Shown here: in pieces, positions 42,926 to 48,622 of the stretch
Layout of the letters: the number at the start of each line of letters is the position of its first letter
How positions within the stretch are numbered: the stretch's first letter is position 1
Notes under the pieces: model-generated
Told to the model about the DNA's origin: nothing
The model's input: only the letters and a program-made list of their open reading frames with translations
Databases searched by the model: none
Position numbers and translations under genes: made by a program
Assembly: GCF_000801105.2 (NCBI RefSeq)
Contig: NC_079517.1
Coordinates: 4,898,001-4,962,000, forward strand
From: Raphanus sativus
Taxonomy: Eukaryota; Streptophyta; Magnoliopsida; Brassicales; Brassicaceae
DNA length: 64,000 nt
Reading direction: 5' to 3'

Positions 42926-42998
42926 GGGGATGTAGCTCAGATGGTAGAGCGCTCGCTTAGCATGCGAGAGGTACGGGGATCGATACCCCGCATCTCCA
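42926..42998 (+). tRNA. tRNA-Ala (AGC)
   Basis: A 73-nt cloverleaf. Acceptor stem GGGGATG pairs with CATCTCC (one G-T pair), discriminator A at 42998. D-arm TAGCTCAGATGGTAGAGC gives the A-box; anticodon stem CTCGC/GCGAG encloses TTAGCAT with anticodon AGC at 42959-42961; T-arm GGGGATCGATACCCC gives the B-box (GATCGATACC). No intron. A T run follows about 25 bp downstream, suitable for Pol III termination. Confidence 0.97.
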
Positions 42999-45990: not shown

Positions 45991-46124
45991 GCAAGAGTGA
46001 CAGTTGCTGGAGGCAGCGGTTCATCGATCTCTTCCTGAGAATTTTTTTTTGGAAAGAAAGGAAGATAAAAATTAAAAGCATGAACAGATCGATAAACCTC
46101 TGCATCCAGCGGTTTACCTCTTCG
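45991..46124 (+). ncRNA. MIR162A: MIR162a microRNA precursor hairpin
   Basis: The 21-nt mature miR162 (starts TCGATAAACCTCTG, ends CATCCAG) is at 46089-46109 on the 3' arm. The star strand (TGGAGGCAGCGGTTCATCGA and two more bases) is at 46008-46029 on the 5' arm and pairs with it. The stem extends outward through AAGAG/CTCTT, and a loop of about 60 nt joins the arms. miR162 targets DICER-LIKE 1 mRNA and so limits the miRNA machinery itself. Placement between NF-YB12 and the NHP2-like gene matches Arabidopsis At5g08185 (recalled). Confidence 0.96.
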
Positions 46125-47039: not shown

Positions 47040-47225
47040 AATTATGGCCCAAATATTTAGGCCCATCACATCTAACATGTTTCAAGCCCATACAGACTTA
47101 GGGTTTCCAACAGACTCTCTTCTTCTGCTCAAGCAGTTCTATAAAAACCTCGTGGTTTGGTTAACAACCTCCATAAACCCTAATTACTTCCGCCACTCTT
47201 TTTTACTTGGTTGCTAGCTAAAAAG
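47040..47225 (+). promoter_or_regulatory. Site II plus telo-box promoter of the NHP2-like gene
   Basis: Two GGCCCA site II elements at 47046-47051 and 47060-47065, and a telo-box AAACCCTAA at 47175-47183, 43 bp before the ATG; TTAGGGTTT also occurs near 47098. This combination is characteristic of plant ribosomal-protein and nucleolar-protein genes. Confidence 0.75.
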
Positions 47226-48622
47226 ATGGGAAGCGACACCGAAGCAGAGAAGTCGATTCAAAAGGAGAATAAGAAGAAGGTTATCTCTCTTGCCCCTATC
47301 GCTAAACCTCTCGCCGGCAAAAAGCTACAGAAGAGAACATTTAAACTCATTCAAAAAGGTACCAATCTGATACATCCCCATTCGCATTAGTGTTACTTTT
47401 TTTGCCGAGATTCTCGAACCTAAGACATATCTGATATTGTACTCTGTTTGTCTCAGCTGCTGGAAACAAATGCTTGAAGAGAGGCGTCAAGGAAGTTGTC
47501 AAGAGCATAAGACGTGGCCAGAAAGGGTTCGTTTTCTTTTTCATGATTCTCTTTTTTCTTTTTGAGTGCATTATATGTTAGTTTCTTTGTGTGAAAGCCG
47601 TGTACAATTAAGCCGATGCTCTGGATTGAAAATAATGAATGTAGCATGGTACTGTACACGAAAACTGAGCTATGGATCGACATGTCTGCCATCTCTGAGT
47701 TTTTAACTGATTAGACGGCCTGGTTTAGATCCACATTCTATCATTTTAGTATGCATTTCGTACATTATAATGGCATCTATTATATTGTGAAAGCCCGTGT
47801 ATAATTAAGCCGATGCTCTGGATATTTAAATAGAATGAAGGTAGCATGGTACTGTGCACGAAAACTGAGCTTTGTTGCGGATTGACATGTCTGCCCTCTT
47901 TGAGTTTTTGTGATCAGAGGGCCTGGTTGAGATCCACATTCTATGTTTTTTTTTTGCTTGGATTTGATTTTAGTTTAGTATTCTTCGATGTTCTTTGTAA
48001 AATCCGTGTACAATTAAGCCGATGCTCTGGATTAAACATAAATGAATGTAGCATGGTACTGTATACGGAAACTAAATCACGAGTTTGAAATGTCTGTGCC
48101 CTCTCTGAGTACCTAATCGGTTCTTTGATTTGCGGGCCTGGTTTAAACCCACATTTTCTTGTCTATTTTTTTAGCTAGAAAATAATGATTTGTCTGTTTC
48201 TTTGATGCTACTTCGCTATTCCTATGATTTGTTTGTTTAATAGACTGTTTTTGGTTTTGCAGATTATGTGTTATAGCTGGAAACATATCTCCCATTGATG
48301 TGATTACCCATCTTCCAGTCTTGTGTGAAGAAGCTGGTGTTCCATACGTCTACGTTCCATCTAAAGAAGTAAGCCAATGTTCTAATTGTTAATCTAATCT
48401 TAATACGGATCTTTTTACTCGTGTCTAAGACTTGTCAATTGTATGATGTTTATATTTCAGGATCTCGCGCAAGCCGGGGCAACAAAACGACCCACTTGTT
48501 GTGTCTTGGTCATGCTTAAACCGGCCAAAGGTGAACTAAGCGCGGAAGATCTTAAACAGCTGAAGACAGACTACGAACAAGTCTCTGACGATGTTAAAGA
48601 GCTTTCAACTTCAGTAATCTGA
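47226..48622 (+). CDS. NHP2-like L7Ae-family H/ACA snoRNP protein
   Basis: Four exons, 47226-47358, 47457-47526, 48263-48368, 48461-48622, give 156 residues. A Lys-rich head (KKKVISLAPIAKPLAGKKLQ) precedes the L7Ae/L30e RNA-binding domain: KCLKRGVKEVVKSIRRGQKG, LCVIAGNISPIDVITHLPVL, CEEAGVPYVYVPSKEDLAQA, TKRPTCCVLVM. NHP2 is one of four core proteins (with dyskerin/CBF5, GAR1, NOP10) of H/ACA snoRNPs that make pseudouridine in rRNA in the nucleolus. The promoter has site II and telo-box elements. Intron 2 is 736 bp and holds three tandem H/ACA-snoRNA-like units. Matches At5g08180 (recalled). Confidence 0.93.
47600..47738 (+). ncRNA. Putative H/ACA snoRNA, unit 1, in intron 2 of the NHP2-like gene
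   Basis: Hairpin 1: outer stem GTGTACA/TGTACAC and inner stem ATGCT/AGCAT, separated by an internal loop (ATTAAGCCG on one side, GGTAC on the other) like a pseudouridylation pocket. Hairpin 2: outer stem GGATC/GATCC and inner stem GCCATCT/AGACGGC with one mismatch. ACA at 47733-47735 lies three bases before the proposed 3' end. A hinge ANANNA can be read as ACACGA or a degenerate AAAACTGA. Size of 139 nt is typical. Confidence 0.75.
47797..47941 (+). ncRNA. Putative H/ACA snoRNA, unit 2, in intron 2 of the NHP2-like gene
   Basis: A diverged copy of unit 1. Hairpin 1 outer stem GTGTATA/TGTGCAC keeps pairing through G-T pairs; hairpin 2 inner stem GCCCTCT/AGAGGGC is perfect although unit 1 has a mismatch there. 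Outer stem GGATT/GATCC, then ACA at 47936-47938 and three more bases. Pairing kept despite base changes supports an RNA-level function. Confidence 0.72.
48006..48156 (+). ncRNA. Putative H/ACA snoRNA, unit 3, in intron 2 of the NHP2-like gene
   Basis: Third copy. Hairpin 1 outer stem GTGTACA/TGTATAC (one G-T pair), inner ATGCT/AGCAT. A good H box AAACTA (ANANNA) follows at 48070-48075. Hairpin 2 has an inner GCCC/GGGC and an outer GAGTTT/AAACCC stem (one mismatch), then ACA at 48151-48153 and TTT. The most diverged unit, but it has the best H box. Confidence 0.68.

Follow-up and report, generated by a model that had tools for sequence, protein, structure and literature searches.

Three tandem snoR100-type H/ACA units in intron 2 of an NHP2-like gene of Raphanus sativus, and their predicted 18S rRNA targets

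Intron 2 of an NHP2-like gene of Raphanus sativus contains three tandem units that are very probably box H/ACA snoRNAs of a known family, snoR100 (Rfam RF01219). They lie in a window of 64,000 nucleotides, by which we mean the whole stretch of DNA analysed, and all three are in sense orientation relative to the host gene (Table 1). Matched to the snoR100 covariance model, they exceed the curated gathering cut-off of the family, 50 bits, with E-values of 1.6e-20 to 7e-12 and across the whole 116-position model; among themselves they are 77-88% identical, gaps left out. A sequence-only reading of this DNA had described three diverged tandem copies, at coordinates that are right within 2 nt (the starts are placed here 2 nt further 5'), had proposed a covariance search, and had seen in them H/ACA snoRNAs within an NHP2 gene. 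All three units being over the cut-off in that search, this proposal is borne out by the covariance match, by three paralogous arrays kept as units and by two pockets that match rRNA. The same reading could not tell whether the RNAs were already catalogued. The family is, since the units match RF01219 and the RNA has been detected in Arabidopsis; hence the find is mostly ordinary, and adds new members to a known family.

Table 1. Position of the host gene, its upstream motifs, the three units and their guide strands (window coordinates)
Feature	Position	Strand	Remarks
NHP2-like host gene	47226..48622	+	coding exons 47226-47358, 47457-47526, 48263-48368, 48461-48622
Site II (GGCCCA x2, AGCCCA) and Telo-box (TAGGGTTT, AAACCCTA)	47046..47182	+	upstream; element starts 180 to 51 nt before ATG
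Intron 2	47527..48262	+	GT...AG, contains all three units
snoR100 unit 1 (type A), set at full length with 3 nt past ACA	47598..47738	+	RF01219 at 47633-47738, 69.5 bits
snoR100 unit 2 (type B)	47795..47941	+	RF01219 at 47833-47941, 68.8 bits
snoR100 unit 3 (type C)	48004..48156	+	RF01219 at 48040-48156, 102.4 bits
Unit 1, pocket 1 left guide strand ATTAAGCCG	47607..47615	+	matches 18S CGGCUUAAU; predicted target U1176
Units 2 and 3, pocket 1 left strand, same element	47804-47812, 48013-48021	+	
Unit 1, pocket 2 left guide strand ACATGTCTG	47680..47688	+	ATGTCTG matches 18S CAGACAU; predicted target U1215
Units 2 and 3, pocket 2 left strand, corresponding element	47885-47893, 48088-48096	+	
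Unit 1, pocket 2 right guide strand CCTGGT	47719..47724	+	matches 18S ACCAGG
Units 2 and 3, pocket 2 right strand, same element	47922-47927, 48137-48142	+	

The host gene specifies a product of 156 amino acids, in a frame that runs without internal stop across four exons whose splice sites were placed by reading and with the help of the paralogues. The top relatives of this protein in the PDB are the H/ACA subunit NHP2 (9g25, E 2.7e-39), while the SNU13-type chain that scores best against it, 15.5K (named NHP2-like protein 1), gives E 6.6e-20; the Pfam domain Ribosomal_L7Ae (PF01248) is present. Judged by such comparisons, its closest characterised relatives are NHP2, not SNU13 or eL8. About 1.1 kb upstream of the gene lies a MIR162_1 microRNA precursor (window 45997-46119, plus strand, 99.4 bits), MIR162 being presumably also a neighbour of the NHP2 gene of Arabidopsis, and a tRNA gene match (60.3 bits) is found at window 42926-42998, on the plus strand. 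Telo-box and Site II motifs, the meaning of which we take from PMC4660826, stand upstream of two of the three NHP2 loci of the genome; a search upstream of the third, at C2, where part of the sequence is N, found no Telo-box and no Site II.

The genome (433 Mb) holds at least ten copies of snoR100, at three loci: C7, the locus of the window, and C2 have three copies each, and C3 has four. The true number may be higher, for the search scored the best 52 of 38,521 candidates, and all ten of the matches reported were over the cut-off. Each of the ten sits in intron 2 of an NHP2 paralogue, and the presence of three such loci would be in keeping with an old genome triplication like that of Brassica and related plants. 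The copies belong to three types common to all arrays, A coming first, B in the middle and C last. From array to array the units are 89.5-95.2% identical (nine comparisons: A, B and C in each of three pairs), by a measure that penalises gaps and differences in length. The intron flanks and the spacers between units, by contrast, reach 31.1-73.0% (ten comparisons; the A-B spacer of C3, with its extra unit, was omitted). Set against the best of 100 shuffles, six of these ten values are not above it, three surpass it by under 3 points, and one stands well clear of it, that of the 5' flank of C7 compared with C2 (73.0% for a best shuffle of 63.5). Introns 1 and 3 are 44.6-65.7% identical between paralogues, exceeding the best shuffle in five of six cases, and the coding exons 87.8-88.4%, gaps being left out of this last measure, which thus differs from that used for the units. 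The units are therefore about as conserved as coding sequence, or more.

Two of the loci show peculiarities of their own. The extra unit at C3 (C3_2, L010:1716-1857) looks, by eye, like a mosaic, with a hairpin 1 loop resembling that of C7_2 and a hairpin 2 of type A. In the C2 paralogue (L009, G000:C2:26328000-26332000, minus strand), compared with the other two, exon 1 lacks three bases and has one inserted, and exon 2 lacks two; these changes do not cancel, and no continuous frame is left. Its array, by contrast, has three units over the cut-off, among them the one that scores highest in the whole genome against the Rfam model, at 108.4 bits. With its protein frame broken and its array intact, the locus may therefore host guide RNAs only; a broken gene with live RNAs and an assembly error (the assembly is a draft with N gaps) are both possible.

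As delimited here, the units are longer than the Rfam entry. They start 35, 38 and 36 nt (units 1, 2 and 3) upstream of their respective Rfam matches. The Rfam model starts within hairpin 1, and the 5' arm that we added on the basis of pairing and of the paralogues completes an 8-bp lower stem and provides the left strand of pocket 1. Our units thus share with Rfam snoR100 matches over the whole model above cut-off, the Arabidopsis RNA being nucleolar by FISH, and they differ from it in reaching 35-38 nt further 5', with hairpin 1 complete. For Arabidopsis thaliana snoR100, a northern band of ~160 nt has been reported together with the nucleolar FISH signal (PMC7464842), as well as, in the same paper, a second band of ~100 nt, given as 120 nt in its Discussion. 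The RNA was 2.2-fold enriched in whole lysate over nuclei, with a cytosolic signal too (PMC7464842). The ~160 nt band agrees better with the longer unit than with the Rfam form; that the ~100 nt band is this shorter form is a guess.

Turning to the fold, the minimum-energy structure of each window unit consists of two hairpins, as the sequence-only reading had it, and a tail; the hinge of unit 2 contains a further helix of 2 bp. The two-hairpin form is found in eight of the ten copies, C7_2 and C3_3 having the extra 2-bp helix, and the minimum-energy fold of C2_3 and C3_4, both of type C, differs from it (some units were trimmed by 1-2 nt for these runs). Fold stability was considered as proof and dropped, the energies overlapping with those of shuffles: the window units have z = -1.44, -1.27 and -0.46, and the ten copies range from -0.16 to -2.50, hardly below shuffles, with only C2_1 coming close to the customary 0.05 level, where 5 of 200 shuffles are equally good. 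In these minimum-energy folds the guide strands are partly paired internally (GCC with GGU in hairpin 1), and open pockets are therefore an assumption.

Pairing was counted over the ten copies on named stems with hand-set anchors; a MAFFT alignment of these units shifted the 3' hairpin of type C against the others and was left unused for the count. In the 8-bp lower stem of hairpin 1, 79 of 80 cells are paired, seven of them as G-U; for hairpin 2 the figures are 50 of 53 in the lower and 50 of 60 in the upper stem. The pairs of base changes that had been offered as stem-keeping are partly wrong: GTGTACA/TGTACAC and GTGTATA/TGTGCAC differ in such a way that the stem stays paired only via two G-U wobbles, while GCCATCT/AGACGGC contains an A-C mismatch, and its change to GCCCTCT/AGAGGGC is therefore one from mismatch to pair. 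Made of wobbles and a mismatch, the evidence of compensatory change fails in that form. Double changes are seen, in a hand-set alignment, only in the lower stem of hairpin 2, which the sequence-only reading had not cited and where GGATC/GATCC stands against GAGTTT/AAACCC, with GGATT/GATCC between the two. From type A to type C, an A-T pair becomes G-C and a C-G pair becomes T-A, type B having T-G, and one pair of this stem is A-C in the three type C units. Two pairs of the hairpin 2 upper stem are missing in type C, and type A has a mismatch there.

This last mismatch, together with Rfam scores of types A and B (69.5 and 68.8 bits) well under the window's top, 102.4 for type C, might make one think of decaying duplicates, with type C as the one functional unit and two passengers. 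We find this improbable. In conservation across arrays, types A and B equal type C (89.7-95.2% and 89.5-94.8% respectively), unlike the spacers; type C has defects of its own in hairpin 2, with the two pairs lost from its upper stem and the A-C in its lower one; and the lower scores may reflect which copies were used to build the Rfam model.

The sequence-only reading had also placed an ACA three bases from the 3' end, and indeed each window unit ends, as the ends were set, with ACATT plus one base. ACATT is present in all ten copies, with 3' ends set from the sequence. A strict H box, ANANNA, was found in the searched hinge of one copy in ten (C7 unit 3); AAACTG, one base off the H box, is present in seven, and C2_1 and C2_2 have neither.

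What would these RNAs guide? The scan for candidate targets was limited to 164 nt of 5.8S and 1,026 nt of 18S, the latter taken as pieces from this genome. The best match of pocket 1, GGAGCC[U]GCGGCUUAAUU, has 10 + 3 pairs with one G-U, and that of pocket 2, ACCAGG[U]CCAGACAU, has 7 + 6 contiguous pairs. The matching of pockets to rRNA, which had been suggested earlier, thus yields a candidate 18S uridine for both pockets, with the restriction that pocket 2 of type C, which has two extra bases, scores 13 when these are set aside and 6, elsewhere in 18S, if they are counted. Neither strand of the 64-kb window has a site that scores as high as the 18S matches, for either pocket. Shuffled versions of the 1,026 nt of 18S equal the scores of pocket 1 and pocket 2 in 8 and 21 of 20,000 runs respectively, shuffled 18S plus 5.8S in 2 of 2,000 per pocket, and shuffled guides in 4 and 3 of 5,000; extrapolation to all rRNA would raise these chance figures about fivefold, by estimate, and the borders of the pockets were chosen after the matches had been seen.

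The two predicted sites are 39 nt apart. Their numbers, U1176 and U1215, are Arabidopsis-equivalent, anchored on the U of the scanned 18S sequence that we take to be U1192; in human 18S the first site (1232) is presumably a pseudouridine and the second a C. In Arabidopsis, U1192 of 18S is the position that carries m1acp3-Psi (PMC8351944). Across the family, TAAGCCG, ATGTCT and CCTGGT are unchanged in the ten copies, and TAAGCCG lies outside the Rfam model, the ten units that have it being all ten Rfam matches. Pocket 1 pairs over 7 bases instead of 10 in C2_1, C3_1 and C3_2, and in C3_3 the final G of ATGTCTG is replaced by T, which makes one mismatch beside the target of pocket 2. On such complementarity, pocket 1 is likely to guide pseudouridylation at the 18S U1176-equivalent, and for pocket 2 the U1215-equivalent is a probable, equally predicted target. 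The 18S fragments at L014, L016 and L017 (G000:C260, C5596 and C5798) start abruptly after non-ribosomal sequence, preceded in L017 by a stretch occurring twice, and are displaced rDNA or misassembly; a 25S scan of prokaryote genome contigs gave 0 matches.

The most likely course of events would be the following. Intron 2 would be spliced, then trimmed to three separate RNAs of ~140-153 nt, each of which would be bound by CBF5, NOP10, GAR1 and NHP2. Pocket 1, in the 5' hairpin, would guide 18S pseudouridylation at GCC-U-G-CGGCUUAAUU, and pocket 2, in the 3' hairpin, at ACCAGG-U-C-CAGACAU, so that the tandem array would mainly lift the dose of one guide with two sites. Co-expression of host protein and guide RNA follows from the arrangement and may reasonably be presumed.

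A bolder conjecture, which we hold to be rather remote, is that the NHP2 intron array senses the state of H/ACA assembly and feeds back on splicing, C2 possibly being a host of guide RNAs only. Still fainter is the thought that the units, while snoR100-like, might act mainly in cis, the H/ACA proteins gathering on intron 2 to slow or divert its splicing, so that the level of NHP2 would feed back on its own gene. It would suit a host that encodes a protein of the same particle, for which SNORD86 in NOP56 offers a precedent (PMC11028025), and an intron with three to four such copies might be a sensitive sensor; both pockets, however, keep a complementarity to 18S for which a sensor acting purely in cis would have no need, and from the units to the splice sites the intron flanks mostly do not rise above shuffled background, except the 5' flank of C7 versus C2. 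As for a chance repeat or a plain intronic duplication with no RNA function, the overlap of fold energies with shuffles is in its favour, but the covariance E-values, the conservation of units with hardly any in spacers and an RNA of the family seen in Arabidopsis leave it next to no credence. The reading we prefer thus remains that of an array of genuine snoR100 guides.

Such an arrangement is a known theme, in view of parallels in other genes for proteins of snoRNPs. The Arabidopsis genes Fib1 and Fib2 are likewise plant snoRNP protein genes with a snoRNA, U60, which we take to be intronic and, differing in this from the units described here, of the C/D and not the H/ACA class. U60.1f and U60.2f were found there by dot-matrix analysis (PMC8351944). 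In human DKC1, introns 8 and 12 carry SNORA36A and SNORA56, an arrangement of coding and noncoding parts that its Drosophila orthologue reportedly shares (PMC12683209). This is the same situation of a core H/ACA protein gene with intronic H/ACA guide RNAs, with the difference that the protein is dyskerin, not NHP2, that the snoRNAs are others, and that there is one per intron, in contrast with the tandem array here. An intron of NOP56 hosts SNORD86, described as a cis-acting autoregulator (PMC11028025); it too is an intronic snoRNA in the gene for a protein of its own particle, while belonging to the C/D class and regulating in cis, and the NHP2 array is known here from its sequence.

On the family itself, snoR100 is named in a count table for potato (PMC5513076) and in a copy count for cotton (PMC11222342). 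The main text of PMC8351944 mentions neither snoR100 nor 1176 or 1215; the parts consulted of the plant ribosome structure papers PMC10281867, PMC9483110 and PMC10743738 contain no 18S site list that covers the U1176 and U1215 positions; snoR100 is unnamed in the corresponding part of PMC5122169; and the papers that a literature search for U1176 or U1215 brought up appear unrelated. Supplementary tables were outside this literature search, and host gene or targets may therefore be listed there already, so that we make no claim that they are unpublished.

What is added here is the full-length form, the conservation at three loci and the prediction of targets, and there is little in it to surprise a specialist. 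A catalogued plant guide RNA is placed in the gene of a protein of its own particle. The likely full length of snoR100 is given, the Rfam model being without the 5' arm of hairpin 1, and two testable target uridines of 18S are proposed, in the neighbourhood of helix 31. Should both targets hold true, a single guide, snoR100, would serve two sites lying close together, and its copies would be a dosage feature kept at three paralogous loci.
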